Assembly: GCF_036864975.1 (NCBI RefSeq) | Contig: NZ_CP104311.1 | Span: 2,483,513 to 2,547,512 of the forward strand | DNA length: 64,000 bases | Reading direction: 5' to 3' | Origin: Methylococcus capsulatus | Lineage (GTDB): Bacteria; Pseudomonadota; Gammaproteobacteria; Methylococcales; Methylococcaceae | Shown: positions 4,667-56,672 of the stretch, in pieces | Position numbering within the stretch: the first letter of the stretch is position 1 | How the letters are laid out: every line of letters begins with the position of its first letter | Program-made: the position numbers and the translations under genes | The notes under the pieces: model-generated | What the model was told of the DNA's origin: nothing | The model's database searches: none | What the model saw: the letters and a program-made list of their open reading frames with translations, nothing else

Positions 4667-4683
4667 CAGGTCGTCCTACAATC

Positions 4684-5136
4684 TCAGATATCAAATTCGG
4701 GTATGAGCCGGGCCTTGTCGATCAGGTCGAAAGGGATGGCATGCAGGCCGTTGTCGTCCTCGAGGTCGATCACATCCCCTCGGACGCCCGCGATCTTGCC
4801 CTTGAACCGCCGCTGACCATCCAGGGATCGCATCGTTTGCAGCCGCACCTGACGGCCGATGAAGCGTTCGAAATGCTCGATGGTAAACAGCGGCCGGTCG
4901 AGTCCGGGCGATGATATTTCCAGCTGGTACTGGCCGGGGATGGGATCTTCCACATCCAGCATACCGCTGAGCTGGTAGCTGACCTTCGAGCAGTCGTCCA
5001 GACCTATTCCCTCGGAGTGGTCGATGTAGACGCGCAGAACTCTGGCACGGGCGTCGAATTCAATTCCCGCCAGTTCATAACCCAGGCCGGTAACGACGGG
5101 CTCGATCAGTCGCTGCAGGTGTTCGGGCATCCGCAT
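4684..5136 (-). CDS. rimP: Ribosome maturation factor RimP
   Basis: RimP assists 30S assembly. I chose ATG at 5136, giving 150 residues (MRMPEHLQRLIEPV...), which matches the family length of about 150; an upstream ATG at 5175 would add 13 residues with no family counterpart. Conserved blocks include GYELAGIEFDA, LDVEDPIPGQYQLEISSPGLDRPL and the C-terminal SH3-like domain. It is the first gene of the nusA-infB operon and is preceded by a structured leader (5203-5256). Confidence 0.93.
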   Translation of the reverse strand: MRMPEHLQRLIEPVVTGLGYELAGIEFDARARVLRVYIDHSEGIGLDDCSKVSYQLSGMLDVEDPIPGQYQLEISSPGLDRPLFTIEHFERFIGRQVRLQTMRSLDGQRRFKGKIAGVRGDVIDLEDDNGLHAIPFDLIDKARLIPEFDI

Positions 5137-25049: not shown

Positions 25050-26010
25050 CGGCTTCAAATTTGAAGAGCAACGCCTGATTGAAAGAATACCTGAGCAGGT
25101 GTCGGGTATCCCAGACTCTTCCTGGGGCAGTTGTTGAGTCTCTCCATAGCCCTATCGATCTCCTGTTGGGTGAGGGTGGTGAAGTCCCGGTGCTTCGGGG
25201 AGTATTGCCGGATGAGCGCATGGGTATTCTCGTTCGTGCCGCGCTCCCATGAAGGGCAGGGATGAGCGAAGTAGACGTCGGCCTTCAATGGCTTGCTGAT
25301 CGACTCATGTCCGGCGAATTCCCTGCCGTTGTCGGAGGTGAGGGTAAGCACGCGTCTGCGGTATGGCCTGAGCAGTTTGATCATCGCATCGCTCACGGCC
25401 TGCGCGGTCTTGCGCCCGACCTTCTCGATCAGGGTCAAGCCTGACTTGCGTTCGACCAGGCTGACGATGGCTTGTTTGTGTCCACCGCCGATGACGGTGT
25501 CCGCTTCCCAAGCGCCGATCCGGCTGCGCGTTGCGACAACGGCAGGGCGCTGTTCGATGGACTGCCGGTTGGGGAGGACGCCGCGGCGGTCATGCTTGCC
25601 ATAGCGTTTCCTGCGCAGCTTCGGGCAGCGCAGGTTGCGCCATAACGCACCGCCCGCTTTCTTGTCGGCAGGGACGCGCTGATACACCGTCGCATGGCTG
25701 ATGGCCGCATGCTGGCTGATTGGGTCTGGACTCCACTGCTCCCCTAGCCGATCCCGGGCGAACTGCCAGGTGGCATCGTCGATCGGCCGGGCGTTCAAGG
25801 CGCGACGGGCATCGGCCAGACTCTGGGCTTGCCTGGGTCGGTAGCCGCGCAGGCCGCGGTTGCGGCGCAACTCCCGGCGGAGGGTCGATGGATGACGTCC
25901 CAGCACGTTGGCAATCCTGCTTGGCGTCTGTCCTGCCTTCTTCAAGGCGTAAATCCGGTATCGTTCTTCTCGGCTGAGGTGTGTGTAGTTCATTTCTGCA
26001 ATTTCGACTG
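25050..26010 (-). mobile_element. IS30-family insertion sequence
   Basis: The element surrounds an intact IS30-type transposase. Imperfect terminal inverted repeats are visible: TTCAAATTTGAAGAG at 25054 against GTCGAAATTGCAGAA (minus strand, 26007-25993), 10 of 15 positions alike. The left repeat overlaps the transposase stop. Outer ends are estimates. It sits 76 bp from the trailer end of the CRISPR array. Confidence 0.75.
25055..25993 (-). CDS. IS30-family transposase
   Basis: The 312-residue protein has an N-terminal helix-turn-helix region (YTHLSREERYRIYALKKAG, SRIANVLGRHPSTLRREL) and a DDE catalytic core with WEADTVIGG, LTSDNGREFA and WERGTNENTHALIRQY. The D, D and E positions characteristic of IS30 are present and the frame is intact, so it may be active. 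Confidence 0.96.
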   Translation of the reverse strand: MNYTHLSREERYRIYALKKAGQTPSRIANVLGRHPSTLRRELRRNRGLRGYRPRQAQSLADARRALNARPIDDATWQFARDRLGEQWSPDPISQHAAISHATVYQRVPADKKAGGALWRNLRCPKLRRKRYGKHDRRGVLPNRQSIEQRPAVVATRSRIGAWEADTVIGGGHKQAIVSLVERKSGLTLIEKVGRKTAQAVSDAMIKLLRPYRRRVLTLTSDNGREFAGHESISKPLKADVYFAHPCPSWERGTNENTHALIRQYSPKHRDFTTLTQQEIDRAMERLNNCPRKSLGYPTPAQVFFQSGVALQI

Positions 26011-26085: not shown

Positions 26086-29000
26086 GAATCCGCCCCTTCT
26101 TCATCAGGTCTCGATTACAACAACGGGATTGCCCGTATTCAGAGCGTGGAGTTCAGTGTCTTAATCCCTTCTTCATCAGGTCTCGATTACAACGTCTTAA
26201 TTTCTATGACTATTTTTTGGAGTGAAAAGTCTTAATCCCTTCTTCATCAGGTCTCGATTACAACCTTGCCGCGCTTACCAAAGATCCCAACGCAATGATG
26301 TCTTAATCCCTTCTTCATCAGGTCTCGATTACAACCTCATAGGTACGGGCAAGGCTGGGTAGTCGATACTGTCTTAATCCCTTCTTCATCAGGTCTCGAT
26401 TACAACGTTCTACATCTACGAAGTATGGGGCAATGCCAAGTCTTAATCCCTTCTTCATCAGGTCTCGATTACAACACGCTGCCGTGTCTAAGGCCTTGGC
26501 CTATGCCAAGTCTTAATCCCTTCTTCATCAGGTCTCGATTACAACAGCTGCTAACCTTCAACCACATTCCCACGCCGGAAGTCTTAATCCCTTCTTCATC
26601 AGGTCTCGATTACAACGTTCTACATCTACGAAGTATGGGGCAATGCCAAGTCTTAATCCCTTCTTCATCAGGTCTCGATTACAACACGCTGCCGTGTCTA
26701 AGGCCTTGGCCTATGCCAAGTCTTAATCCCTTCTTCATCAGGTCTCGATTACAACCGCGCTGCCTAGGCAGCTTCACCCAGTGGTCATCGTCTTAATCCC
26801 TTCTTCATCAGGTCTCGATTACAACATAACACCGGAAGAAACGCTTAACAGCATGGACAGTCTTAATCCCTTCTTCATCAGGTCTCGATTACAACGCCTC
26901 ATGGACGAGGCACACGGACGCCCTTATCGGGTCTTAATCCCTTCTTCATCAGGTCTCGATTACAACGCCTCATGGACGAGGCACACGGACGCCCTTATCG
27001 GGTCTTAATCCCTTCTTCATCAGGTCTCGATTACAACACGCTAAGGCAGTAGAAGAGCTTCGCTCGGCTCTGTCTTAATCCCTTCTTCATCAGGTCTCGA
27101 TTACAACAATGACCACAATAACCGCTGATAGACTTGTAAGCGTCTTAATCCCTTCTTCATCAGGTCTCGATTACAACCCCGAATCCATTCGGATTCGGGC
27201 ACAAGAAATTGGTCTTAATCCCTTCTTCATCAGGTCTCGATTACAACATTCATCCCGGCGTGATCTTCAGTGCCCTATCATCCGTCTTAATCCCTTCTTC
27301 ATCAGGTCTCGATTACAACACTCAGCATAGGTCGACACCGGAACAGCAAGACGCGTCTTAATCCCTTCTTCATCAGGTCTCGATTACAACCGATTTCTTG
27401 GAGAGAAAAATGATAAACCTTACACAGTCTTAATCCCTTCTTCATCAGGTCTCGATTACAACCGACCTTGTCGACAACTTGCGGCAAGAGGTCTGCGGTC
27501 TTAATCCCTTCTTCATCAGGTCTCGATTACAACCGGGCCACCTTGGCTAATGCCGGTCTTGTCCGCCGTCTTAATCCCTTCTTCATCAGGTCTCGATTAC
27601 AACTTCATTCCGGCATGATCTTCCGTGCCCTATCATCCGTCTTAATCCCTTCTTCATCAGGTCTCGATTACAACTTATTGGCACAGTCGAATATGACTCG
27701 GCCGTGTCGTCTTAATCCCTTCTTCATCAGGTCTCGATTACAACGCGGAAGCCATCCTAGACAGGATGGTAGACCGTGGTCTTAATCCCTTCTTCATCAG
27801 GTCTCGATTACAACAACAAATGATCAATTTAACCCAACATCGGGCAACGGTCTTAATCCCTTCTTCATCAGGTCTCGATTACAACGACATAGGGATTTTT
27901 GCTTTGTAAACTACATATAGTCTTAATCCCTTCTTCATCAGGTCTCGATTACAACCTTCCGTGCCCTATCATCCCGTTGGATGATAGGGTCTTAATCCCT
28001 TCTTCATCAGGTCTCGATTACAACAAAGACTTCCGGGATATAACCCGGTTTACTTAGAGTCTTAATCCCTTCTTCATCAGGTCTCGATTACAACTCAATT
28101 TAACCGCGCATTGGGATTGCGCGGCGTGTCTTAATCCCTTCTTCATCAGGTCTCGATTACAACTTGATTTTTTGGAGGAAAAGAAAATGCTCATCGGTCT
28201 TAATCCCTTCTTCATCAGGTCTCGATTACAACGAGACTTGGTAGATACCTTGCGTCAAGAGGTCTCGTCTTAATCCCTTCTTCATCAGGTCTCGATTACA
28301 ACGCTGCGTCCTGCGTGATTTCTACCTGTATGGTGATGTCTTAATCCCTTCTTCATCAGGTCTCGATTACAACGGCCGGAGCGTAGGGCATCCCTGTGGC
28401 GTTTTCGTCTTAATCCCTTCTTCATCAGGTCTCGATTACAACCCCATCGCCAAGCGCATCGACGACTGTACATAGTCTTAATCCCTTCTTCATCAGGTCT
28501 CGATTACAACCAAGCTCATCGCGCGTATCCGCGACTACTACTCGGTCTTAATCCCTTCTTCATCAGGTCTCGATTACAACATGCCAGCTTGCCCAATTCT
28601 GCAAGCGCCTGACGGTCTTAATCCCTTCTTCATCAGGTCTCGATTACAACATCAGATGCTCGATGCCATAGAGGCGCTACGGGGTCTTAATCCCTTCTTC
28701 ATCAGGTCTCGATTACAACGGATGCATGAAGAAGAAAGGCCGGCAGCGATGCAGTCTTAATCCCTTCTTCATCAGGTCTCGATTACAACAAGGAATGCCG
28801 TATAAGTACATTTCCTATGCTCCGTCTTAATCCCTTCTTCATCAGGTCTCGATTACAACTTTGACACAGCATAGAGCGACTCCCGAACAGCTTGAGTCTT
28901 AATCCCTTCTTCATCAGGTCTCGATTACAACACACAGAAATCGCCAAAAACACTGCGTTATTGTGCCGTCTTAATCCCTTCTTCATCAGGTCTCGATTAC

Positions 29001-30197
29001 AACGCTGGGAGAATTCAATAATTAGGCAATTTCTTGTAGTCTTAATCCCTTCTTCATCAGGTCTCGATTACAACGAATTAAAACAAAAAATAACAGGCCT
29101 AAAAGCCATGTCTTAATCCCTTCTTCATCAGGTCTCGATTACAACTCCTGCCGTTATCGATACCCGCGCGCAAGAGATTGTCTTAATCCCTTCTTCATCA
29201 GGTCTCGATTACAACTGAAGTCTGGGGCAATGCCCTAGGCGAATGGACGTCTTAATCCCTTCTTCATCAGGTCTCGATTACAACCTTGCCGAAGAGCTAA
29301 AGAAACGTGGCATCACGCCGTCTTAATCCCTTCTTCATCAGGTCTCGATTACAACGAATGGAAGATAAACTCGGTTGAACCAGACCGAGAGTCTTAATCC
29401 CTTCTTCATCAGGTCTCGATTACAACAAAACGCAAACGCAAACTTATACATATTATTTAGTCTTAATCCCTTCTTCATCAGGTCTCGATTACAACATACG
29501 GTGAGAACCAATGCGACCTTGGAGAAATCGTCTTAATCCCTTCTTCATCAGGTCTCGATTACAACCGTCTGCATCGTCTGCATCGTCGCGATTTGCTGCG
29601 TCTTAATCCCTTCTTCATCAGGTCTCGATTACAACGCCAGTATTCTTGATGTTCCGTTGTCAGACATACGTCTTAATCCCTTCTTCATCAGGTCTCGATT
29701 ACAACCGCCGGTTAGCTGAAAAAAGCGGATTAGGCTGTCGGTCTTAATCCCTTCTTCATCAGGTCTCGATTACAACCCGGCGGAGGAATCGAAGCCGGCG
29801 GACTGATAGAGTCTTAATCCCTTCTTCATCAGGTCTCGATTACAACAAGCGGAGGCATCGAAGCCGGCGGATGTATCAATGGTCTTAATCCCTTCTTCAT
29901 CAGGTCTCGATTACAACGGAGTCGGATGCTTTTAAATGGTTGGCGGATAATGTCTTAATCCCTTCTTCATCAGGTCTCGATTACAACATAGTAATTTAAT
30001 TAATTATAAAAATTCTAATGGGTCTTAATCCCTTCTTCATCAGGTCTCGATTACAACCAACGAATTTAAGGAATGGGACGTATATGATGAAGTCTTAATC
30101 CCTTCTTCATCAGGTCTCGATTACAACACTGAAGCGAAACACAAACGCTTCAGAAACTAACGTCTTAATCCCTTCTTCATCAGGTCTCGATTACAAC
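26086..30197 (-). CRISPR. CRISPR array, 59 repeats and 58 spacers, transcribed on the minus strand
   Basis: I count 59 copies of a 36-bp repeat separated by spacers of about 32-36 bp. Read on the minus strand the repeat begins GTTGTAATCGAGACCTGATG and ends GAAGGGATTAAGAC, so Cas6 cleavage should leave an 8-nt ATTAAGAC-type 5' handle. The copy at the left end (26086-26121) is degenerate over the handle-side 11 bases, while the right-end copies are perfect. The leader is therefore on the right, next to cas2, and new spacers enter there. Spacers 5 and 8, 6 and 9, and 12 and 13 (counted from the left) are identical. Several others are related in sequence and several contain strong hairpins. Confidence 0.99.
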
Positions 30198-30363
30198 TGC
30201 TTCGTCTTTTTCCTCCTTGCCATTCAATGGCTTGCAAAGGGGGTTGAAGAAAATTCGCCCGTTCAAAAAGCTGACTCCCCGGAGGGTGGCGTTTCTGCTT
30301 ATGCCATGACGTCCGTTCGGTCTGTAGTAAATCATCGGTGCGAAATCCGGGCAAGACGGGCGG
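30198..30363 (-). promoter_or_regulatory. CRISPR leader
   Basis: The region lies between the last repeat and the stop of the distal cas2. It contains the inverted repeat GCCATTCAATGGC (30219-30231), 22 bp from the repeat edge, and the block TCAAAAAGCTGA (30263-30274). Both features recur at the same side of an orphan repeat at 53620-53717, which supports a conserved leader function. No clear -10/-35 was identified. Confidence 0.75.
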
Positions 30364-30681
30364 TCAGGATTTGCTCAAGGAAAGCAGGTCGCAGCCGCCG
30401 TCGATGAGGAAAATGCCCTCGGGAAAGCTCTGGCGGCCAAGCCGGATGCGCTCGCCATGCTGGGGAAAGGGATAAATCCGGACGTCGTCGCGGCGGGGAT
30501 CGATGATGTCGGCGATGGTTTCGAGCATGCGCGCCCGTTTGCGGGGCGAGAGTTTGGCAACGAACACGGAATACTGCAAGGGTATGCCGAGACCACTGAG
30601 ATAGCGGTGCAGACGGGTCAGACGACGAGGATCGGCAATGTCGTAGCTGATGATATGGAGCCGGGGGGTGTTTTGAGCCAT
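30364..30681 (-). CDS. cas2: CRISPR-associated Cas2, second copy
   Basis: The start at 30681 gives a 105-residue ferredoxin-fold protein with HIISYDIADPRRLTRLHRYL, where Asp follows SY as in the conserved Cas2 position, and GIPLQYSVFVAKL. Cas2 dimers bridge two Cas1 dimers in the spacer integrase. It starts 2 bp after the stop of the divergent Cas1-like gene and is the gene nearest the leader. It is only distantly similar to the other Cas2 at 32436-32720. Confidence 0.9.
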   Translation of the reverse strand: MAQNTPRLHIISYDIADPRRLTRLHRYLSGLGIPLQYSVFVAKLSPRKRARMLETIADIIDPRRDDVRIYPFPQHGERIRLGRQSFPEGIFLIDGGCDLLSLSKS

Positions 30682-30683
30682 GT

Positions 30684-31457
30684 TCACTCCGTTTCTATGA
30701 GCCAGCGGTGCATGCGGGAGGTGATGCTGCGGGTCAGCCAGTCGAGCCTTTCTCTCCGTCGTTCGTACCAGGCTACGATTTCGGCCGGCGACGGACATTC
30801 AGCGATTCGGCCTTGCTGCAGCCGGTGTTCCAGCCACGCTGCACAGGGCAGCTCGAATTCCCACCGCAACAGGCGGACCCACCCGGTGACGGGGTCGAAG
30901 CCGACCGCGGTACACTGGCCCAGGTCTACGCCGAGATCGTGCAGGGTCTGGGTGACGTGGGAATTCAACAGGCAGCGGAGGTGAGCGCCAATGGCCCGGT
31001 AGGCGTCGTACCCGCCCATGTCTTTGGCGGAGGCAAGGAACAGCCGGCGCAGTTCCGGAGCGGTGAGGTCGGGTGTGAAGATGAGTCCGGCGCGGCGGAT
31101 CAGGCTGCGGATGGCGTTGCGCTCGACGCCTTCGAGCCAGACGGCGTAGAGTACGTCCCGATCGGGATGCTGGAGGAATTCGTCGAGGCGCTGGGCGAAG
31201 CGGTCGTGCGGTGAGGGACGCGGTCCGATGCAGCGCATGACGAGCCTGCCGTCACCATCGAGGAAGGTCACGGTGATACCGGACTCGGCGCACCGCAGCA
31301 GCGCCGCAGTGGTCCATTCGACGTTGCACGCGGATACCACGCGGGACAACCGGCCCAGGGGGTACCAGCGCGGCGCCTGTTCGGGCTGGCTGATTTTCAG
31401 CGCGGCGCCGTCGTTGGCGACTTGCAACTGGCTGCCGTAGAGATAGAGCGGTTTCAT
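30684..31457 (-). CDS. Divergent Cas1-like protein lacking the catalytic triad
   Basis: The 257-residue protein aligns by eye with Cas1 along its length: MKPLYLYGSQLQV at the N-terminus, ALLRCAESGITVTFLDGDG in the beta domain, and a C-terminal GFDPVTGWVRLLRWEFELP where active Cas1 has GFYHEP...SLAADLIEP. At the three metal positions it has Tyr/Asp near 150 instead of Glu, Asp188 instead of His, and Glu200 instead of Asp. It overlaps the active cas1 stop by 4 bp and is followed directly by a second cas2. I infer a structural paralogue in the integrase rather than a nuclease. The relationship rests on inspection only. Confidence 0.8.
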   Translation of the reverse strand: MKPLYLYGSQLQVANDGAALKISQPEQAPRWYPLGRLSRVVSACNVEWTTAALLRCAESGITVTFLDGDGRLVMRCIGPRPSPHDRFAQRLDEFLQHPDRDVLYAVWLEGVERNAIRSLIRRAGLIFTPDLTAPELRRLFLASAKDMGGYDAYRAIGAHLRCLLNSHVTQTLHDLGVDLGQCTAVGFDPVTGWVRLLRWEFELPCAAWLEHRLQQGRIAECPSPAEIVAWYERRRERLDWLTRSITSRMHRWLIETE

Positions 31458-32428
31458 GCGGCGGCACTCCCGTTGGCGTCGTGGTCGTCCTTGAGGCGGG
31501 TGGCGATGCCGTATACCTGGCGCCGCAGCAGCCGGCGTAAGGGCCGACAGCGGATTTCGAAAGCGCTGTAGAAGCGTTCGCGACCGGTTTTTCCGAGCAG
31601 GCAGGTGTCGCCGCTGCGGGTGAAATGGTCTTCGCGCAGGGCGCGGTCGGCGAACAATCGCCAGACCCAGTCGTCGATGTGGGCGCGTAAGGGCTCGATC
31701 AGGTCGGCGGCGAGCGACTCGCGGTTATAGGCGGGTTCGTGATAGAAGCCGATGTAGGGGTCGAGCCCGCCGGCATGGCAGGCGGCGATGGCTTCGAAAT
31801 GCAGCAGGGTGTAGGCCAGCGACAGTACGGCATTGACCGGGTCCCGCGGCGGCCGGCGGTTGCGGCCGGTGAAACCGAGCGCCGGCGGAAACAGGCTTTG
31901 CAGAGCGCCGAAATGGGCGGCGGCTCCGGCGCCTTCCAATCCACGCAGGGTGGGCAGCGCGGCAGCTTCGGCCGGCAGGGCTTGGACTTTGCCGATCAGT
32001 TGCAGCAGTTTGTCCTGGGCGTCGGTCAGAGGCCTGCGGCAATCGGGCCGTTCCTGCAGGGCACGGGTGAGCATGCGGTGCTGCGCGCGCAATTTGAGCA
32101 GCACCAGGAGGCGGGCCCAGCGGCTGCGGTAGCCGGCATCGTGATACCAGCGGTATTGGCCGATCCGCCGCCAGGCGTCCCCTTGCGGACGGCCCAGTAC
32201 GGTGGCCATGTGTTTGCCGTGGCGACCGCTGAGCAATACCAGGACGATGCCTTCTTCGGTCAGGGCGCCGATGGTTCCGGAGGTGAGTGTCACGGCGCCA
32301 CGGATGACGACGCGGTCGATCAGACCGATCGGGACGGTGCCGCTTTTCGTGCCGTTTTCGTAGAGACAAAGGTGCTTGCCTTCGTGGCGGAGTTCGAGGT
32401 TTTTGCGGTCGAGATACAGTGTGCCCAT
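31454..32428 (-). CDS. cas1: CRISPR-associated endonuclease/integrase Cas1
   Basis: The 324-residue protein is a standard Cas1: N-terminal beta domain (LYLDRKNLELRHEGK), then the helical catalytic domain with Glu165 in RGLEGAGAAAHF, His230 in GFYHEPAYNRESLAADLIEP and Asp242 in the same block. These are the expected metal ligands. It follows cas2 by 7 bp and overlaps the divergent cas1-like gene by 4 bp, so a cas2-cas1-cas1-like-cas2 operon is translated as a unit. Confidence 0.97.
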   Translation of the reverse strand: MGTLYLDRKNLELRHEGKHLCLYENGTKSGTVPIGLIDRVVIRGAVTLTSGTIGALTEEGIVLVLLSGRHGKHMATVLGRPQGDAWRRIGQYRWYHDAGYRSRWARLLVLLKLRAQHRMLTRALQERPDCRRPLTDAQDKLLQLIGKVQALPAEAAALPTLRGLEGAGAAAHFGALQSLFPPALGFTGRNRRPPRDPVNAVLSLAYTLLHFEAIAACHAGGLDPYIGFYHEPAYNRESLAADLIEPLRAHIDDWVWRLFADRALREDHFTRSGDTCLLGKTGRERFYSAFEIRCRPLRRLLRRQVYGIATRLKDDHDANGSAAA

Positions 32429-32435
32429 GGGAGAG

Positions 32436-32720
32436 TCAGCCGACGTAGTAGTAGGCGGGATCGGCCGGCGCTATGGCGGTGCCGAGTACCGCGACTTTGG
32501 ATGCCGGGTCGAGCCGGATCAGGAAGAAGCGGTCTTCGGTGAGGTCAATGACGCCGGCGATGTCTTCCAGTAATTGGCGTTTTTCCAAGGCGCTCAGAAA
32601 ACATTCGAATACCGACTTCTGGCCGCCGGTGCTGTAATTGCGCAGCACTTTCAGTGCGGCCCGGAGGCGGGTGTCGTCGGAGACGTCGTAAGCGCCGAGG
32701 TAAAGGGTGCGTTTCGCCAT
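32436..32720 (-). CDS. cas2: CRISPR-associated Cas2
   Basis: The 94-residue protein has the Cas2 pattern LYLGAYDVSDDTRLRAALKVL, GGQKSVFECFL and a C-terminal strand region. It opens the adaptation operon. A -10-like TAATCT (32732-32727) lies so close to the ATG that transcription should begin at or within one or two bases of it, suggesting a leaderless message. The island palindrome lies 26 bp further upstream. Confidence 0.95.
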   Translation of the reverse strand: MAKRTLYLGAYDVSDDTRLRAALKVLRNYSTGGQKSVFECFLSALEKRQLLEDIAGVIDLTEDRFFLIRLDPASKVAVLGTAIAPADPAYYYVG

Positions 32721-32850: not shown

Positions 32851-34035
<1,185 letters not shown>

Positions 34036-34455
34036 TCACGGATCGGTTTGTTCGGAACTTACTCCAGTATTTCCCGTTACGGAATCGGTCGTCCGCTGGC
34101 AATGCCGAGCTTCGGTTTCGTCTCCAGCATCACGACCGACGGGACCGTATGGCCGTCCAGCCGACGGGGTGGCCCGCACCTCGAATTGTTCCAGGCGCGC
34201 CCCGAAGCGGCGGAGATCGTCGGCGGAAAGTTCCCGCCCCCGCCATTCCGCCGGCAAGACCAGACTGAGGTGCAGATACCGGCCGCCGCGGGCGCAAACT
34301 TCGGCGGCGAGGTTGACCGGCAGGGTGCCTAGCACCGTATCGCCCGGCTCGATTTCCGCCGGATCGAGATGGTCGACCAGCCGGTCGACGCGGATGCCTT
34401 CCTGTTCCGCCCAGAGGTGGGCGCCGGCGTGGCGGGTGATGAAGAAGGTAGTCAT
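34036..34455 (-). CDS. csx16: Csx16 (VVA1548 family), probable ring nuclease
   Basis: The start at 34455 gives MTTFFITRHAGAHLWAEQEG, the Csx16 N-terminus, followed by DTVLGTLPVNLAAEVCARGG and YLHLSLVLP. The family length is about 100, so the Ser/Thr/Asp-rich tail after about residue 105 is extra. Csx16 proteins are type III accessories proposed to degrade cyclic oligoadenylates and switch effectors off. It overlaps the cmr6 stop by 4 bp and precedes the CARF-HEPN gene. Confidence 0.9.
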   Translation of the reverse strand: MTTFFITRHAGAHLWAEQEGIRVDRLVDHLDPAEIEPGDTVLGTLPVNLAAEVCARGGRYLHLSLVLPAEWRGRELSADDLRRFGARLEQFEVRATPSAGRPYGPVGRDAGDETEARHCQRTTDSVTGNTGVSSEQTDP

Positions 34456-35846
34456 GCCGTCTCCAGCCGTATCAGGGTTTTTTCGCACACGTAGGCTGTG
34501 ACTTTGATGAACTGATTGGCGAGTACCTTCTTTTGAATTTCCGATGGCAAGGTTTCCAGCAATTCTTTTCCTTGCGGCGCGAGGGCGGAGGCGATCTTGC
34601 CGTCCTTCTCGACCGAGAGCGTTCCATTGTTCCGGTTAAATTTGATGCGTGCACCGGGCCATGGAACAGCCTGCTCGGCTTGCCGCTTTTCCTCCTGTTT
34701 TTTGGCGATTTCCTTCAGTTGTGCTGCACGTTCCGCGGCTGCGGTTTCCAGCGCTTGGCGCTGTTTGTCCGAGCGCATCGCCCCATATCCCACCGCCGTC
34801 TTGGCGCCGAAGCCGAGCCATTGGAACGCGTGCTCGAACGCGGCTTCGATCAGCTTTTTCCACTGGCTATCGGCAGTAAGTTCCGGTGCGAGGCGATCGA
34901 GATGTGCCAGATCGCACTGCACATGAAACGTGAATCCGGACCCTGGCGGTACGGTGAGAAAGAAGATGGGCGTGGGCTGGCCGGAGTCGTGGGGTGTGAT
35001 GCTGTCGCCGGTCTTGCGGTCGCGTTTTTCCTGGTAGTAGTGCGACTGGTGCGGGGTCATGATCTCGACCAGAAGGCTGTCGCCCTCGATCTGGGGGATG
35101 ACGTCCCAAAAGCTGAGCGCGCCGCGCAGGTGTTCGGTGTCACCATCTTTTGATTCGAAGCCAAAGAGAATGTCGATGACCGACTGGCCCTTATCCCCGT
35201 CCCCCCTCCCGCTTGCGGGTGAGGGGAGCGGAAAGTCCCTCTCCCGGGGGGAGAGGGATTTAGGGTGAGGGTGCACATCCCACTCGTGAGTTTCGCCCCA
35301 TTCGCCGCTGGCCAGCTCCCGTGCCGCTTGACGCAGCACGCCCTTGACCCCGCTGCCCGGCAAGTAGGGCAAACCATAGGGCCAGAGGAAGGAAAAGCCG
35401 TTTTCGAGCGGGTGTTCGTTGCCGAGGCCGGTGGTGAAGGGGGAGGTGGCGATGGCGTCGAGACGGAGCAGGGCGTCGTCAGGAATTCCACAGGTCAAAT
35501 CCGTTTGACGGTCAACGAGCGCCTTCATGCGTTTGCGATCGTTCGGAGTGAGCACCTTGATGCTGTCCCAGGCATTACGTGCGGCGAAATCGTTTTTCTC
35601 CCATAGCCCAGGCAAGGGGTTGCATTGGCGTCGGCACAGCTCCGCGATGGTGGCATCCATACCGTAGCGTCGAAGCATTTCGGCGATTTCTCGGCCTTCG
35701 GAACTTTTCCGCTCAGCTTGTTTCTTGACCTGATTTTCCTGATCCTGACGGTCAGTCCATATCGGGAGCAGCAGTCCAAACCGCATTCCCGGGGAGGCGT
35801 CCTTGAAATCTTGCCCCAGATATTGGGGCACGGCGGCAATCGGCAT
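34452..35846 (-). CDS. cmr6: Type III-B Cmr6 with in-frame repeat insertion and C-terminal extension
   Basis: Cmr6 caps the 3' end of crRNA in the Cmr complex. The core is clear from TSPFTTGLGNEHPLENGF, PYGLPYLPGSGVKGVLRQA and FEHAFQWLGFGAKTAVGYG. The protein is 464 residues, longer than the usual roughly 300. Residues about 191-220 are encoded by a REP-like palindrome pair in frame, and residues about 365-464 add a charged helix plus a small beta-like domain. It begins 1 bp after cmr5 ends. Confidence 0.93.
   Translation of the reverse strand: MPIAAVPQYLGQDFKDASPGMRFGLLLPIWTDRQDQENQVKKQAERKSSEGREIAEMLRRYGMDATIAELCRRQCNPLPGLWEKNDFAARNAWDSIKVLTPNDRKRMKALVDRQTDLTCGIPDDALLRLDAIATSPFTTGLGNEHPLENGFSFLWPYGLPYLPGSGVKGVLRQAARELASGEWGETHEWDVHPHPKSLSPRERDFPLPSPASGRGDGDKGQSVIDILFGFESKDGDTEHLRGALSFWDVIPQIEGDSLLVEIMTPHQSHYYQEKRDRKTGDSITPHDSGQPTPIFFLTVPPGSGFTFHVQCDLAHLDRLAPELTADSQWKKLIEAAFEHAFQWLGFGAKTAVGYGAMRSDKQRQALETAAAERAAQLKEIAKKQEEKRQAEQAVPWPGARIKFNRNNGTLSVEKDGKIASALAPQGKELLETLPSEIQKKVLANQFIKVTAYVCEKTLIRLETA
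35198..35275. repeat. Two REP-like palindromes inside cmr6
   Basis: One unit pairs CCCTCCCGC with GCGGGTGAGGG; the second pairs CCCTCTCCC with GGGAGAGGG and is followed by TTTAGGGTGAGGG. The insertion keeps the frame and encodes a Pro/Arg/Ser/Gly-rich stretch (LSPRERDFPLPSPASGRG). Related units lie at 8768, 39931 and 40668. Confidence 0.75.
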
Positions 35847-35847
35847 G

Positions 35848-36281
35848 TCACTCTCCTCCCATACGTGCGCTGGCCATTTGCCGCAGCCATTTGAGCCAGG
35901 CGAAGGCTTCGGCGGTGATGGCTTGAAAGCGGAGTGACTCGGCTTCCATGAGTTTCTTCATGGCCCCTTCGAAATCCGCAGGAAGATCATCGAAACGCGT
36001 GTGCAAGGCGTCCCTAAGATGCTGACCAATGTGCGTATGCGGGTCGTCAGGTTTAGGTCTACCGGTTTTCTTGTCCAGACTTTTCTCGTGGAGGTACGCC
36101 AATACCTGCATCAGCCCCGAATTCATGATCAACGCGGGTACGCTCTTGGCTAGATCGACGTATTTGTCATATTCGGCCCCCAGTTGCTGCTTGGCCTTGA
36201 CAGCACAGTCCCATGCATCCTGGGCACGTTGTTGTTCCAGCGTTTGCCGGGGTTTGTCTTTGCTGAGGGAGAGGGTTTTCA

Positions 36282-36282
<1 letters not shown>
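35848..36282 (-). CDS. cmr5: Type III-B Cmr5
   Basis: The 144-residue all-helical protein has the Cmr5 pattern QTLEQQRAQDAWDCAV, KSVPALIMNSGLMQVLAYL and a C-terminal ITAEAFAWLKWLRQMA. Cmr5 forms the minor-groove filament of the complex. It overlaps the cmr4 end by a base and leads into cmr6. Confidence 0.93.
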
Positions 36283-37502
<1,220 letters not shown>

Positions 37503-37507
37503 CCGCG

Positions 37508-37774
37508 GTGAGATTGCTGCTCGATACCCATGTATTCCTGTGGTTGATCTGGGATGGGCCAGAACTTCCGCCTGCGATGCGCGAGATCCTTTCCGACCCC
37601 GATCACACCCTTTTCCTGAGCGCGGTTTCGGTGGGGGAAGCAACGCAAAAACCCGCCCAGGGCAAGCTCACGGTGCATGCGCCGGAAGGCGCGTGGGCGC
37701 ATTTCGTACGACATCAGAACCTTGTAGGAATGAGCGCATCGTTCATTTCCAGACAGCCAGCGCCACCCGGTTGA
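37508..37774 (+). pseudogene. PIN-domain toxin (VapC-like), C-terminally truncated
   Basis: The GTG start 6 bp after the antitoxin remnant gives MRLLLDTHVFLWLIWDGPEL and SVGEATQKPAQGKLTV, the first half of a VapC/PIN toxin with two of the four acidic residues. The rest of the domain, including the HRDPFDR-type block, is missing: after about residue 70 the sequence is unrelated and overlaps the 3' end of cmr3. Length is 88 versus about 125-130. It is very unlikely to be active. Confidence 0.75.
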
Positions 37775-38921
37775 AACCCTCGGCGCGGCGCATTTCTTCA
37801 TCGTACTGCTCATCGGTCCAAAGCCCACGCTCGACAAGCTTGCGAAGCGCTTCCGCCGTGATGCCTTCGTCGAGTTCCAACCACCAGACGCTGCCGGCGG
37901 GGGCGGCGCGCAGCGCAGGCTTGGGCTGCCACTTCGCGAGATCCCAGCCGGAGACGAATTCGAAGCGCGGCACAGCGGCCGAGACGATCCAGCCCTTGAC
38001 GCCGTGGAGATCGAAGCACACGGCGCCATCGTCTCGCTTATCGTTCTCCCGCGCCCCGGTGGGCAGCCAGCCCTTGGCAAAGATGCCGGGGGTGGTGAGC
38101 ACGAGCCGGCAGCGGCGCGCCTTGGCGATGCTTTCGTAGTCCGATTGCGGCGGCGAGAAATCCACGGATTGGACGGCCGCCGCGCGTCCGTCACCGCCTA
38201 GGCGAACAGTCCCGTTGCTGGGGAGATCCGCTCCCACAACGACAGCAAGGAAGCCTACGCCGGCCTTCATCGCCACCGCTTGCACGGTAAAGAGCCTGCC
38301 GTCGGCGGCGCGACGGGTGGCGGCATCGAGACCCACGCCCACCCGGTGGTCGAACTGCCAAAGCTCGTGGCTGGAGACGAGTTCGCCTACAGCAGGCACC
38401 TCACCGCGCAGGTAGCGCGCCCAGCCGGCTTGGGTGAGCCAGTAGCCGCTGGCGGGCTTGCCCCGCTCGCGTTCGGCCAGCACGGGCAATCGCGGCAGGA
38501 TAAAGGAGCTGGCCAACCCCGCTGCGGACGATGGCTTGCCACCAGGCCAGGAGAGGGGGACGATCGCCCGCACTGCGGATGGCTTGCGATCATCCTCCGA
38601 GATGACCAGGTCGGCTGGCGGCGTGATGAGCAGTTCCACCTGGCCTGAAGCCCACCGCCGCGCCACGTGAAAGCCCGTCACGGCAAACGGGCCGGGTTCC
38701 ATGGGCGTTCCCAGCGCCGGATGGTCGATCTCTCCCCGCGCGAAGGCGGCCAGGTCCACGCCATCGTCGGCCAGTATCCGCGAGCGCAGCGCGCCCGCCG
38801 CCACCGAAGGCCAGGGCGGGATCAGCGAATCGCCGAAACTGCCCGGATCGCCGAACAGCTTGTTGCCGCGCAGGAAAAGCACGTCCAGGGGTTCCAGAAA
38901 ACGGTATGCGACGGCGCTCAT
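37743..38921 (-). CDS. cmr3: Type III-B Cmr3
   Basis: ATG at 38921 gives 392 residues starting MSAVAYRFLEPLDVLFLRGN, the standard Cmr3 opening; it overlaps the cmr2 stop by 4 bp. GSFGDSLIPPWPSVAAGAL and TTPGIFAKGWLP are further family blocks. Cmr3 binds the crRNA 5' handle next to Cmr2. Its 3' end overlaps the truncated toxin remnant on the other strand. Confidence 0.93.
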   Translation of the reverse strand: MSAVAYRFLEPLDVLFLRGNKLFGDPGSFGDSLIPPWPSVAAGALRSRILADDGVDLAAFARGEIDHPALGTPMEPGPFAVTGFHVARRWASGQVELLITPPADLVISEDDRKPSAVRAIVPLSWPGGKPSSAAGLASSFILPRLPVLAERERGKPASGYWLTQAGWARYLRGEVPAVGELVSSHELWQFDHRVGVGLDAATRRAADGRLFTVQAVAMKAGVGFLAVVVGADLPSNGTVRLGGDGRAAAVQSVDFSPPQSDYESIAKARRCRLVLTTPGIFAKGWLPTGARENDKRDDGAVCFDLHGVKGWIVSAAVPRFEFVSGWDLAKWQPKPALRAAPAGSVWWLELDEGITAEALRKLVERGLWTDEQYDEEMRRAEGFNRVALAVWK

Positions 38922-41900
38922 GCGTCTTCTCCTTGGCTTCGGGTTTCGCGGGCGAGGAATTCGGCGACGGACAGGAAGTTTTCCAGCCACGCCCGGCGCT
39001 TTCCAGGCTGTTGCAGTGCCAGTTCGGTCAGGCGCTCGGCCAGCCCCTTTGCCTTGCGCTCGGCGTCTCCCTGCGCTTGCCGCACGAGCTGGTAGGTGAG
39101 CAGATCGGCGAGCATCCGGCCGTCGCCATGCGGTTCTGGCAAGTCGCGCAGCCAGGCGTGGGTGTGAAAGATGGCCCGGCGCGAGACGTCGTCCTGGGCA
39201 AGAAAGTCGCGCAGATCAAGCAGCAGCTTGATTGGCTCACCCCACTTGGCGGTCAGGTACAGCGCCCCGCCCGAGCGTTTGATGACGGTGACGCTGAACG
39301 CGTCGCGCCCACCTTGCGTTTTGGCGCGTTGTTCCGCCGCGCGCAGTTCGCGCAGCACCGCGCCCAAGGGCGCTTGGTGGTGTGCGATGACGGCGCCACA
39401 ACTTGCGGTAGCGTTATGCCCCATCATGCGCATAACTTGCAGCCGTTGCTTCTTGCCATGCCCGGTTCTGAGGGCGGCAAAGCCTCCTTGCAGGGTCAGC
39501 CCCTGCCACACGCCACCTTCATGTTCGGGATCGACACCGGAGTAGGCATAACGCAACCGCTGCATGGTGGGCAGCAGATCGGCCACCGGCAGCATGGCCA
39601 GCACGTCGTCGCCGCCGACATAGATCACCCGTCCCAGGTGTTCTTCCTCGACCACATGGCGCACCACGGTCTGGGAAAAGTCGTTGAGCGCGCCGGAAAT
39701 GGCCAGATGCCGGTTGGGCGAAATGGGGCGCTTCTGGGCGCCGTACTTGCGGATCAAGTCCTGCCGCGCCGCGTGCGCGTCGAAGCCTGTCCGCACCTGC
39801 GGGTGGAAGCTGTCCCGGTAGGAAATGGCGGTGCCGGTTTTGTCGTCGCCCGAGAGAATGGCGCCCATGCGGTCGCCGTCCATCATCAGCAGGGCGTAAT
39901 AGGTTTCCAGCCGGATTTCCTCGCGTTTCTCCCCTCTTCCTTTGGGAGAGGGGCTGGGGGTGAGGGCCAGGGTTTGGCGCACCAGACTTTTTACCTTCTC
40001 GTAAGCGTCGTCATCCTCGTCATCGCGTGCCGATTCGAGCAGGCCGGGGATGCACTTGGCATCCGCCAATGCCGGGTTGTCCTGGTGGCGGCGCATGAGG
40101 CGACGTGGCAGCGCTACCGTGTCGCTGCGATACTTCTTGAGGGCGGAGGCCAGTCCTTCGGCCGTATGCCCGCCTTTTTCCAGCCATTGATCGAGCTGGT
40201 GCGCCAGCGCCATGGTGTGCGTGGAGACGACGAAGCGGCCGATGGCCTTCGCCGTGCCGTCGTCTTTCGGGTTGAGCGCTTTGCCGACTTCTTCGGCAAA
40301 GATCGTCGGCCACAGGCGCTTGATGGCGGGCAGGGCGCCGAGGTGCTCGCCCTTCTTGGCCCAGGCGGGCTTTTCGTCGGCGACTCTCGTCCACAAAGTG
40401 TCTTTGCGTTGACCGGGCGGCCATGCAAGTTGCGCGCGGTCGGTGGTCAGCCATTCGGTCTCGCCCGTCAGCGAACAGCGCCACCCCGTCTGTGAGGTCT
40501 GGTCGAAGGTTCGCGTGGCCTTGGCCGCCGCCATGACCCGCTCGGCCAGGTCGTACACCGCCGGGTAGAGCACGCCGGGGTTGGGGGCGAAAAAGGTGGT
40601 GCCGTCGCCCCAGTCGATTTCCTGCTGCAGAACCTGCCAGGCGGGGGTAGCGAGGAAGCCATATTGGCCCTCTCCTCCGGCCCTTCCCCCCGCCCCCTCT
40701 CCCACGGGGAGAGGGGAGAAAAAAGGCGCCATGGCGGACGAGAGGGCGCTCACGTCGAGGTCGGTCTGTCTCGCTTCATTGCGCGGGCGGATCAGGGAGA
40801 ACGGCACGGCGGCCCAGTGGACTTCCGGGAAGCCTTCGAGCTGTTCTTTCATTTGCTCATACGGTGTGTGCGTGGCCTCCTTGTCGAAGCCCGCTTCGTG
40901 CAGCAGACGCATCACCACATCCTCGCCGAGCCTTTGCAGCCAGCCGCGCACGGCCTGCGTGACCTCATCGGCGATGGCTCGTGCCTGGCTGGCCGGCACC
41001 ACGGCCACGAAACGGTTGGGCAGCGCCGCCGAGAACAGCGGGTTCGCATCCGTCGCGCCGCGCGTCCAGTCGCTGTTCTGGAATAACTCGCCGGGCAGTT
41101 CCATTTGGTCGCGCAGCCACAGATCCACCTGGGGAATGCCGCGCAGCCGGGGGAACAGGATGGCGTCCGGGCCCAGGCGCTCGCATACCGGGCGCATCGC
41201 CTCCCAGCTCAAGCGCGCGAGCAGGTGCGATCCGGCCCACAGGTCGGAGGTGGTGCGGGCGGTGGCGATGAAGCTTTGCACCGGGCCGATCGACAGCGCC
41301 AGCAGCGCCGATTCGCCGTTCGGATCGGCGGCAAAGGCGCCTGCGAAGGCCGAGGTCAGGTCCAGATGATCCCAGATGGAATGATCGGGAATGCGGGTAT
41401 CGGCGGGCAGTAACCCCCACAGCGCGCCCAGCTTGCCGAAGTCTTCGGTGTCTGCCCCATTCACGGACAAATCCGGGCCGAAGCGCCAGTAGGCGAGTAA
41501 GGTCTTGCGCAGATCGCGCGTTTCACCCTCCTCGGCGCCGAGCTTCACCAGCAGGCGGGAGAAGTGCTCGAAGCTGCGCTGCTTGATGTCGTGGAAATCG
41601 GTTTCGGACAGGCCGCCGGGCAAGGCGTACTGCTTGCCGGTGAGCGGATGGATCAACACCGGTTGGTTCGTCCAGCGCACTTGTGCCCAGTCGGCCACTT
41701 TCAGCGTCTTGCGTTTGCCCGCTTGGGTGGTCACCGTGATTTCCTGCATCGGCCACTGCGGACGGTCGGCCGCGGCGGCCCACCAGTCGGCGCGCTGGAC
41801 GTGGCGGTAGATTTCCCGCGGCAGGCCTTTCTTGAAGATCACCGTGGAAAGGACGTCGGCGTTGTCCGGATCCAGGGTTTCGGCGCCGGTCTCCGAGAGA

Positions 41901-42040
41901 CCGAGCAGCCGGGTGAGGGCGCGCGACGTGCCGTTCTCGTGCCCCGCCGGGTCGCGCAGCAGCACCAGGGCTTTTTCCGCCGGGTCGTGGAGGCGGGCGG
42001 CGAGTTTGGTTTGCCAGAGGGTGTAGTTGGTGTTTTCCAT
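38918..42040 (-). CDS. cmr2: Type III-B Cas10 (Cmr2), cyclase and large subunit
   Basis: The 1040-residue protein begins with LWQTKLAARLHDPAEKALVL, the Cmr2 N-terminal region, then SIGPVQSFIATARTTSDLWAG and MDGDRMGAILSGDD. The cyclase motif VIYVGGDDVLAMLP is near residue 808. An intact GGDD predicts cyclic oligoadenylate synthesis on target RNA binding. Two REP-like palindromes are inserted in frame (39931-39964 and 40668-40722), both in non-motif regions. It follows cmr1 by 12 bp. Confidence 0.96.
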   Translation of the reverse strand: MENTNYTLWQTKLAARLHDPAEKALVLLRDPAGHENGTSRALTRLLGLSETGAETLDPDNADVLSTVIFKKGLPREIYRHVQRADWWAAAADRPQWPMQEITVTTQAGKRKTLKVADWAQVRWTNQPVLIHPLTGKQYALPGGLSETDFHDIKQRSFEHFSRLLVKLGAEEGETRDLRKTLLAYWRFGPDLSVNGADTEDFGKLGALWGLLPADTRIPDHSIWDHLDLTSAFAGAFAADPNGESALLALSIGPVQSFIATARTTSDLWAGSHLLARLSWEAMRPVCERLGPDAILFPRLRGIPQVDLWLRDQMELPGELFQNSDWTRGATDANPLFSAALPNRFVAVVPASQARAIADEVTQAVRGWLQRLGEDVVMRLLHEAGFDKEATHTPYEQMKEQLEGFPEVHWAAVPFSLIRPRNEARQTDLDVSALSSAMAPFFSPLPVGEGAGGRAGGEGQYGFLATPAWQVLQQEIDWGDGTTFFAPNPGVLYPAVYDLAERVMAAAKATRTFDQTSQTGWRCSLTGETEWLTTDRAQLAWPPGQRKDTLWTRVADEKPAWAKKGEHLGALPAIKRLWPTIFAEEVGKALNPKDDGTAKAIGRFVVSTHTMALAHQLDQWLEKGGHTAEGLASALKKYRSDTVALPRRLMRRHQDNPALADAKCIPGLLESARDDEDDDAYEKVKSLVRQTLALTPSPSPKGRGEKREEIRLETYYALLMMDGDRMGAILSGDDKTGTAISYRDSFHPQVRTGFDAHAARQDLIRKYGAQKRPISPNRHLAISGALNDFSQTVVRHVVEEEHLGRVIYVGGDDVLAMLPVADLLPTMQRLRYAYSGVDPEHEGGVWQGLTLQGGFAALRTGHGKKQRLQVMRMMGHNATASCGAVIAHHQAPLGAVLRELRAAEQRAKTQGGRDAFSVTVIKRSGGALYLTAKWGEPIKLLLDLRDFLAQDDVSRRAIFHTHAWLRDLPEPHGDGRMLADLLTYQLVRQAQGDAERKAKGLAERLTELALQQPGKRRAWLENFLSVAEFLARETRSQGEDA
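39931..39964. repeat. REP-like palindrome inside cmr2 (first)
   Basis: CTCCCCTCTTCC and GGGAGAGGGGCTGGGGGTGA form the palindrome core. It encodes LTPSPSPKGRGE in frame and lies shortly after the palm-domain MDGDRMGA segment in translation order. Confidence 0.75.
40668..40722. repeat. REP-like palindrome inside cmr2 (second)
   Basis: CCCTCTCC elements and CCCTCTCCCAC/GGGGAGAGGGG pairing are seen. It encodes FFSPLPVGEGAGGRAGGEG in frame. It shares the CTCTCC/GGAGAG core with the copies at 8768, 35198 and 39931. Confidence 0.75.
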
Positions 42041-55541: not shown

Positions 55542-56672
55542 TCAGGTGTCGATGGTTCCGAAACGGATGGCTTCCGGCGGAAGGGTGAGACTGAAACGCC
55601 GGGGCCGGCTGCCATCGTGGCCGACGAGATAGGGGCCGGCAGCGTGGCCGAGCACGTCGTCGATGCTGCGATGCAGCTTGGATTTGGTCTGTTCGAAGAA
55701 TCCTTTGTCCATGCCGCGGTTGAGCCGTTCCTGGGTGCGGTCGCCATCGCCCATGGCGCCGATGATCTTCATGTATTCATCGAGGTATTCGCGGGCGTAT
55801 TCGGATTCGAAAACACCGTCAGGAGGACAGACCAGGGCGGGCGCTTGAGCCAGGCGGCGGCGGGCGAACCAGGCCAGAAAGGCCAGTTGGGTGGGCGCGA
55901 GGCAGAGACTCACGCCACCGGCCTGGATTCGCCGATGCGCCAGGTCGATCGTCAGTTCCGGCCGGGCGAGCGCGGATTGGGCGGCATCGACTGCGAGGGA
56001 GAATCGACTGCGGCCTTTGAGCAGGGCTTTGGGGAGGTTTTGCCGCAGCCGCACGAAGGGTATGTCGGCCAGTGTGACCGTGGCGGCTTTGGTGTCCAGT
56101 GGCCGACTGTCGACACCAGCGGTGTAGATGATGCGGCTGGTCGGGGTGGGGTAGAAGAAGTCGGGATGCGATTCGTAGGGGGACATCACCAGGACGTGCG
56201 AGAGCCGGTCTTGTGAGCGGCCATACAGTGAGAGGGCGTAGCCGGCATAAAATCCCATGGTCTTACGGCCGCCGGCCAGCGAGACGTGGAGCTGTGCTGC
56301 GTCGTCGTCGGTGAAGTGGCGGATCCAGTCGGTGATGGCGTCGGCGGCGGCGATGTTGTCGCTTTCGGTGCGGATGTCGGTGAGCGCTCGCCCGGCGGCG
56401 TCTTCGAGGACATGCAGACAGGTTTCGTCGAAGTGCATGGGCGGCAGGGCGTAATCCCGCCGCAGCCAGTGAAACCAGCCGGGCTCATCGCTGAGCAGGG
56501 TGAGCTGGGCGCGTTCGACCCCTTCGGCGGTGGAGAGAAGGTGGACCTCGGTCGGCAGGGCATCCTCTGCTCGGTGACGTAGGGCATAGAGGGTTTCGGT
56601 GACGACTTGCGGCGTGAGGCCGGTGACTGCGAGCAGAATGCGCCGGGTGTAGCAAAGTGGTGGCGTTTCCAT
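55542..56672 (-). CDS. NE0113-family CARF protein with winged-helix-like C-terminus
   Basis: The 376-residue protein starts with ILLAVTGLTPQVVTETLYAL (about 11-30) and has HVSLAGGRKTMGFYAGYALS (about 129-148), the CARF motifs of the Cas_NE0113 family. From about 240 the sequence ELTIDLAHRRIQAGGVSL, then LAPTQLAFLAWFARRRL, resembles an OmpR-like winged helix. A ligand-sensing transcription regulator is inferred. It stands in its own unit with the island operator upstream, and is followed by the lipoprotein operon. Confidence 0.82.
   Translation of the reverse strand: METPPLCYTRRILLAVTGLTPQVVTETLYALRHRAEDALPTEVHLLSTAEGVERAQLTLLSDEPGWFHWLRRDYALPPMHFDETCLHVLEDAAGRALTDIRTESDNIAAADAITDWIRHFTDDDAAQLHVSLAGGRKTMGFYAGYALSLYGRSQDRLSHVLVMSPYESHPDFFYPTPTSRIIYTAGVDSRPLDTKAATVTLADIPFVRLRQNLPKALLKGRSRFSLAVDAAQSALARPELTIDLAHRRIQAGGVSLCLAPTQLAFLAWFARRRLAQAPALVCPPDGVFESEYAREYLDEYMKIIGAMGDGDRTQERLNRGMDKGFFEQTKSKLHRSIDDVLGHAAGPYLVGHDGSRPRRFSLTLPPEAIRFGTIDT

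Follow-up and report, generated by a model that had tools for sequence, protein, structure and literature searches.

A conserved four-gene CRISPR adaptation module with a predicted Cas1 pseudo-enzyme and two Cas2 genes in Methylococcus capsulatus and other members of its phylum

A 64,000-nucleotide stretch of the 3.43-Mb genome of Methylococcus capsulatus (contig NZ_CP104311.1, positions 2,483,513 to 2,547,512; the whole stretch is hereafter the window) carries four adaptation genes, cas2a, cas1, cas1L and cas2b, lying closely packed between a type III-B effector operon upstream and an array of clustered regularly interspaced short palindromic repeats (CRISPR) downstream. With two cas1 and two cas2 genes, it is unlike the ordinary adaptation module of one each. 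We find that this is a real, conserved four-gene module, present in many families of the phylum, in which the second Cas1, Cas1L, is predicted to be a pseudo-enzyme. A sequence-only reading of the window had described two cas2 genes flanking a cas1 and a cas1-like gene on one strand with tight junctions, and this description holds: 7 bp separate cas2a from cas1, cas1 and cas1L overlap by 4 bp (ATGA), 2 bp separate cas1L from cas2b, and both Cas2 proteins match PF09827 and TIGR01573 (table 1). The active-type Cas1 has PF01867 as its sole family match and is not fused to a reverse transcriptase (RT). One further cas1, of the ordinary kind and close to a cas2, lies elsewhere in the genome.

Across 76 distinct loci with Cas1L, 70 have all four genes in the order cas2a-cas1-cas1L-cas2b, so the arrangement is not due to chance. 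The four genes lie within the stretch read in 69 of these, and in one more cas2a is 1 kb upstream. In three of the 69, one gene is visibly damaged: cas1 is short in L008/L053, cas2b is short in L063 and cas1L is frameshifted in L084. The remaining six loci are cut at contig ends (four) or broken (L054, in which cas1 is truncated and cas2a missing; L068, which lacks cas1). Among 75 loci including duplicates, overlaps of 1 or 4 bp occur at 34 cas1/cas1L junctions and 48 cas1L/cas2b junctions; L007 and L052 are the same DNA (Methylocaldum sp. 14B). One Nitrosomonas metagenome-assembled genome (ACE_PRO54) has two copies of the module, L063 with a short cas2b and L084 with cas1L split into two frames, through either decay or assembly error. 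In L066, a 260-amino-acid (aa) protein (3933-4715), histidine kinase-like by eye in its first 70 residues, is encoded between cas1 and cas1L.

The module is widely spread. Of 151 related genomes, 31 have a Cas1L match and 28 a full-length or nearly full-length Cas1L, the short, weak matches of G077, G092 and G101 (about 20-25 bits) being excluded; as far as the fetched stretches extend, the gene order is the same in all 28. Within the class, 25 of 369 sampled genomes have a match, and the modules are in scattered families: three matches were already known, nine were inspected as new loci, each with all four genes, and the remaining 13 are uninspected. In a phylum-wide sample, modules are present in 6 of 398 genomes, all outside the class, and six of the 13 matches are ordinary Cas1 loci (G184, G238, G341, G404, G416 and G425). 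A single conserved pattern, by which alone, rather than genome by genome, Cas1L was sought beyond the phylum, was scanned against a species-genome collection and returned 42 loci, 41 with Cas1L and one without (L089), in Methylococcales, Nitrosomonas, Chromatiaceae, Plasticicumulans, Contendobacter and other hosts. Searches for Cas1L with tblastn in plasmids and in phages gave no match.

The two Cas1 proteins differ in what they have conserved. Residues Glu165, His230, Asp242 and Glu245 are invariant in all 71 distinct Cas1 proteins of module loci (length-filtered to 290-365 aa). For the 257-residue Cas1L, in which the sequence-only reading saw the outline of Cas1, an AlphaFold2 monomer model based on an alignment of 39 natural sequences has a mean predicted local distance difference test score (pLDDT) of 92.6 and a predicted template modelling score of 0.85. 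Structure prediction, a check suggested in that reading, thus yielded a Cas1 fold: the model aligns over its full length (1-257) to Cas1 structures, best to Thermotoga Cas1 TM1797 (Z 21.9, 252 residues, root-mean-square deviation [rmsd] 3.0, 11% identity). Among the 50 structural matches listed, all are Cas1 or casposase, as are the 50 Foldseek matches listed, and a non-Cas1 fold is ruled out by these matches together with the full fold of the model. PF01867 matches all 39 Cas1L proteins scanned, and the sole other family matched one member. Weak matches to cytidine deaminase (best E 0.0038, residues 38-84) lie inside the Cas1 beta domain and were dropped after the fold result. Relative to Cas1, the Cas1L model has, in our reading of the secondary structures of the two models, one helix fewer around the Glu165 stretch and no equivalent of the beta hairpin at Cas1 residues 269-278. 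A control model of the window Cas1, made by the same steps (pLDDT 89.0; best Z 27.7 over residues 82-316), has an rmsd of roughly 7 or above in its full-length matches, which leaves the arrangement of its domains uncertain. Among the E. coli structure entries listed, chain B is the best for Cas1L in 12 of 13 and for the control Cas1 in 8 of 14; chain letters are not assignable to Cas1a or Cas1b and we draw no inference from them.

The absence of Glu, His and Asp at the metal positions, which the sequence-only reading had pointed out, is borne out with nuances. In two profile-profile alignments, the catalytic Glu of Cas1 is opposite a gap or a Gly of Cas1L, and in the window Cas1L the His column is Val and the Asp column is Gly. 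A relict Asp opposite Asp242 is present in 45 of 72 distinct Cas1L sequences (length-filtered to 230-300 aa) and absent from that of the window. Across the same 72 sequences, acid or His stays below 90% in every column of residues 81-257; the highest values are those of position 99, with 82% acid, and position 250, with 62% His. Comparison of the families by hidden Markov models, likewise suggested earlier, gives a probability of 98.5% for the N-terminal halves and 18% for the C-terminal halves alone, so position-by-position statements about C-terminal residues are soft; the column statistic is independent of them. Cas1L is thus, as modelled, a Cas1 homolog with a complete fold that has lost its catalytic set: the N-terminal domain has been kept, whereas the catalytic sequence has not.

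The two Cas2 proteins are, by motif and phylogeny, two separate lineages. Cas2a is a derived Cas2 with a KSV motif in 56 of 58 sequences and usually ends in F/Y-V-G; Cas2b has a QYSV motif in 58 of 61 and by score is nearer to the Cas2 of ordinary cas1-cas2 pairs. The motifs are mutually exclusive, with QYSV in no Cas2a and QKSV in no Cas2b. In a quick tree of 134 Cas2 sequences, Cas2a and Cas2b fall on separate sides of a branch, with Shimodaira-Hasegawa-like approximate likelihood-ratio supports of 99 and 94, respectively. Pairs of cas2 genes also occur elsewhere. Loci L147, L148 and L153, in related genomes, share with the module a pair of different cas2 genes beside a cas1, here in tandem, yet have no cas1L or any other second cas1. 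Of the two Cas2 proteins of L147, one is by score closer to Cas2a and the other to Cas2b. Loci L150 and L151, RT-Cas1-like by eye (no family scan), have cas2 pairs, and in L149, also RT-Cas1-like by eye, Cas1-like and Cas2-like parts are in one frame. Pairs like that of L147 suggest that Cas2 pairing may be a theme wider than the Cas1L module.

Presence of cas1L correlates with that of cas2a. In the 151 genomes, 27 have both, one has cas1L alone, two have cas2a alone and 121 have neither (Fisher p 2e-26, which is no clean probability because the genomes are related and not independent). The 29 genomes called positive for cas2a score at least 111 bits and the next best scores 60. The sole genome with only cas1L, G007, has it at a contig end, and the two with only cas2a are wrecks, G148 with cas2a and the first half of cas1 and G036 with cas2a and a remnant of cas2b. 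Hence, cas2a is found in these relatives solely with Cas1L modules or what is left of them.

In known complexes, a Cas2 dimer carries four Cas1 arranged as two dimers; within each of these, one copy is catalytic, and the other, Cas1b, is in contact with Cas2 and assembles the complex (PMC10011333). In the Cas6-RT-Cas1 complex of a CRISPR RT system, Cas1b is likewise termed non-catalytic (PMC8102632). A Cas1 fold without an active site, encoded beside an active Cas1, fits the Cas1b seat. We propose, with moderate confidence and as the most likely mechanism, that the products of all four genes assemble into a single heteromeric spacer integrase. Dimerization of Cas1 is known to occur through the N-terminal domain. 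Cas1 and Cas1L would dimerize via their N-terminal beta domains, the sole part of Cas1L with clear sequence similarity; Cas1 would fill the catalytic Cas1a seat and Cas1L the non-catalytic Cas1b seat, tethering the dimer to a central heterodimer of Cas2a and Cas2b. Because two strand transfers need one active site per half, Cas1-Cas1L heterodimers are placed at both ends, and the assembly would be Cas1-Cas1L / Cas2a-Cas2b / Cas1L-Cas1, with the two active sites needed for full-site integration. The earlier suggestion that active and inactive Cas1 form a hetero-complex with two Cas2 proteins is therefore favored by fold, lost active site, selection and co-occurrence with cas2a, while we infer the subunit contacts and seats, as well as any asymmetry of integration and effect on orientation. 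Its companion idea, a built-in asymmetry, has to be made more precise: heterodimers of Cas1 and Cas1L at both ends keep two-fold symmetry, and only a Cas2a-Cas2b heterodimer breaks it. Such a heterodimer would make the ends chemically different and could, in the least supported step of the proposal, help fix which prespacer end enters first.

The orientation of spacers is biased in arrays of the module. In 734 spacers from 14 module arrays (distinct within each array; L050 and L072 have a common repeat and perhaps common spacers), a pattern of our own for a ribosome-binding site plus ATG has 23 occurrences on the complement of the CRISPR RNA (crRNA) versus three on the crRNA strand itself (two-sided binomial, 9e-5). 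Spacer pairs sharing at least 12 nucleotides are in the same orientation in 21 cases versus two in opposite orientation, and some of the former may copy one spacer. Open frames are nearly equal on the two strands (1395 and 1408). The crRNAs of module arrays are thus more often antisense than sense to translation starts, a bias that is compatible with orientation-controlled acquisition and equally with type III selection for RNA recognition. Arrays beside a single cas1 are too small a control, with 68 spacers, one translation start versus none and no overlapping pairs.

Several observations weigh against a heteromeric integrase. Both structure models are of monomers. Linkage alone makes genes of one operon co-occur, no natural fusion of Cas1 and Cas1L was found in 140 loci, and the spacer bias has a simpler explanation in type III selection, with only a small control. 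That some relatives with this Cas1 lineage have only one Cas1 and one Cas2 shows that the extra subunits can be dispensed with, and tandem cas2 genes beside a lone cas1 indicate that two cas2 genes do not require Cas1L.

Other explanations assign Cas1L a different role or none. That it is a decaying, functionless duplicate agrees with the lost active site, with the relict Asp of many relatives and with its nonsynonymous divergence, which is the highest of the four module proteins in 6 of 13 pairs. But the ratio of nonsynonymous to synonymous rates is 0.05-0.27 in 12 of 13 pairs (two of the twelve are rough, with synonymous divergence above 1.5, and the thirteenth is saturated), so Cas1L is under purifying selection and not decaying; the 72 distinct full-length sequences with one frameshifted copy (L084) and the tie to cas2a also speak against decay. 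We consider this explanation, contradicted by selection, hardly credible. Alternatively, Cas1L is a dominant-negative regulator whose inactive subunits poison the complex and keep acquisition low, for which a Cas1 fold lacking an active site and the 4-bp overlap of cas1L with cas1 are suitable. A pure brake leaves unexplained the partnership with a second Cas2 and the fixed order in 70 loci, and we regard it as improbable.

A third possibility, which we judge unlikely, is that Cas1 and Cas2b are the integrase proper and that Cas1L and Cas2a make up a separate accessory assembly with a part in prespacer capture, sizing or transfer like that played in other systems by Cas4, Csn2 or DEDDh domains. 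Co-occurrence of cas1L and cas2a suits this division. So do four relatives that have the same Cas1 lineage and only one Cas1 and one Cas2: by score, their Cas2 is nearer to Cas2b in all four, making Cas1 plus Cas2b look like the minimal unit. The Cas2 tree, however, places three of the four on the Cas2b side and leaves L120 unresolved. The location of cas1L, between cas1 and cas2b and not beside cas2a, also argues against an accessory role, as do the N-terminal domain, the known dimerization part of Cas1 and the part that Cas1L keeps best, and the C-terminal part, which has no conserved acid or His and hence no nuclease-like set. In a Cas1 tree, the four single-Cas1 relatives are inside the modules (99/94 and 98/92), which would mean that cas1L and cas2a were lost jointly; an alternative tree with the modules as one clade was not rejected (approximately unbiased test, p 0.158).

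The Cas1L family is already catalogued. In PADLOC-DB, the window Cas1L scores highest, at 42.8 bits, against entry PDLC01185 ('Cas1, diverged variant, second in the loci'), which ranks first for four of the five Cas1L scanned and fifth for L062. The entry matches all 28 Cas1L genomes of the 151, mostly via the N-terminal part, plus four uninspected genomes at 22-34 bits. As its title says, Cas1L is the second Cas1 gene of the locus, after the active cas1. The entry as shown describes the same family as a diverged second Cas1 only, without the lost active site, the pairing with cas2a or a role. The E. coli complex resembles the proposed one in having a catalytic and a non-catalytic Cas1 in each dimer (PMC10011333), but it has one kind of Cas1 and a symmetric Cas2 dimer. 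The Cas6-RT-Cas1-Cas2 structure 7kft is among the structural matches of Cas1L (Z 19.6); unlike its Cas1, that of the window has no RT or Cas6 fusion, and the available portion of the source describes no second, inactive Cas1 gene (PMC8102632). A genome paper reports csx1, csx16 and two copies of cas1/cas2 in a system that it calls III-A in Methylobacter sp. KS41, and likewise in Acidithiobacillus ferrivorans YL15 (PMC6119699); the KS41 system is locus L057 of our set and has the full four-gene module; the part of that paper available has nothing on a Cas1 without an active site and no mechanism (PMC6119699). An Antarctic metagenome paper has, in its accessible part, one cas2-cas1-cas1-RT contig and nothing further on it (PMC11742911). 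In the open-licence literature, outside which most subscription papers fall, we found no description of the lost active site, distinct Cas2 partner or function of Cas1L, and the matches opened for wording on an inactivated or diverged 'Cas1' concerned, in the text available, Cas10 or Cas12. As far as searched, the module is thus catalogued in part and otherwise unexplained in that literature.

Table 1. Features of the adaptation module, CRISPR array and type III-B operon (window coordinates)
Feature	Coordinates	Strand	Description
CRISPR array	26086..30197	minus	59 repeats GTTGTAATCGAGACCTGATGAAGAAGGGATTAAGAC, last degenerate; 58 spacers
Leader, cas2b to first repeat	30198..30363	minus	166 bp
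cas2b	30364..30681	minus	105 aa; PF09827 59.9 bits, TIGR01573 43.9 bits
cas1L	30684..31457	minus	257 aa; PF01867 residues 4-80 only, 32.6 bits
cas1	31454..32428	minus	324 aa, active-type Cas1; PF01867 residues 4-291, 236.6 bits
cas2a	32436..32720	minus	94 aa; PF09827 44.3 bits, TIGR01573 24.9 bits
CARF effector, TM1812 family	32851..34020	minus	TIGR02221, 217 bits
Csx16	34036..34488	minus	family-profile match
Cmr6	34452..35846	minus	family-profile match
Cmr5	35848..36282	minus	family-profile match
Cmr4	36282..37196	minus	family-profile match
Cmr3	37743..38990	minus	96.3 bits, slightly below curated cut-off 100.4
Cas10/Cmr2	38918..42040	minus	family-profile match

The degenerate terminal repeat at the far end of the array indicates that the leader adjoins cas2b. 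The repeat core has no other copy in the genome at two or fewer mismatches. Near the old end of the array are duplicated spacer blocks (26371-26790 and 26860-27001), in which two spacers recur at a distance of 210 bp and another is duplicated directly, and an IS30-family transposase gene (25055-25993) adjoins the leader-distal end. Spacers 19, 34, 40 and 41, spacers 28 and 39, and spacers 14 and 51 appear to represent the same genes in related phages; translated by eye, the complement of the crRNA gives INLTQHxATPEQ, DLVDxLRQEV or EVWGNA, in one orientation per group. Searches of the window array against phages and of three spacer-derived patterns against viral contigs gave no match, and no protospacer was found.

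The window also has a second type III effector set, with a Cas10/Csm1 of type III-A (50085-52832, 686 bits) and an NE0113-family CARF protein (55542-56672). Since there is no additional cas1 or cas2 among the window proteins scanned, the type III-A set may use the four-gene module and array in common with III-B. The C-terminal part of a large protein encoded at 43204-45534 matches adenosine deaminase (TIGR01430, 144 bits); with a further weak match of CARF type, the protein looks like a CARF-adenosine deaminase effector (Cad1). Proteins of a similar cluster (median 721 aa; one member scanned) are encoded in 8 of 41 related loci.

In two-fold symmetric Cas1-Cas2 complexes, orientation is handled by outside help such as recognition of the protospacer-adjacent motif (PAM), Cas4, nucleases or leader-binding proteins. 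A more far-reaching form of the heteromeric integrase, doubtful in our estimation, is one with a division of labor, in which the catalytic and structural roles divided elsewhere among identical Cas1 copies are fixed in the two Cas1 genes, a Cas2a-Cas2b heterodimer marks left and right, and orientation is set by the composition of the protein and not by processing of the PAM or by leader factors. Separate genes for catalytic and non-catalytic Cas1 and for two Cas2 would make it possible to mutate the positions of the complex one at a time, unlike those of a homo-oligomer. If the proposal is true, it gives a role to a family so far labeled as just a diverged second Cas1.

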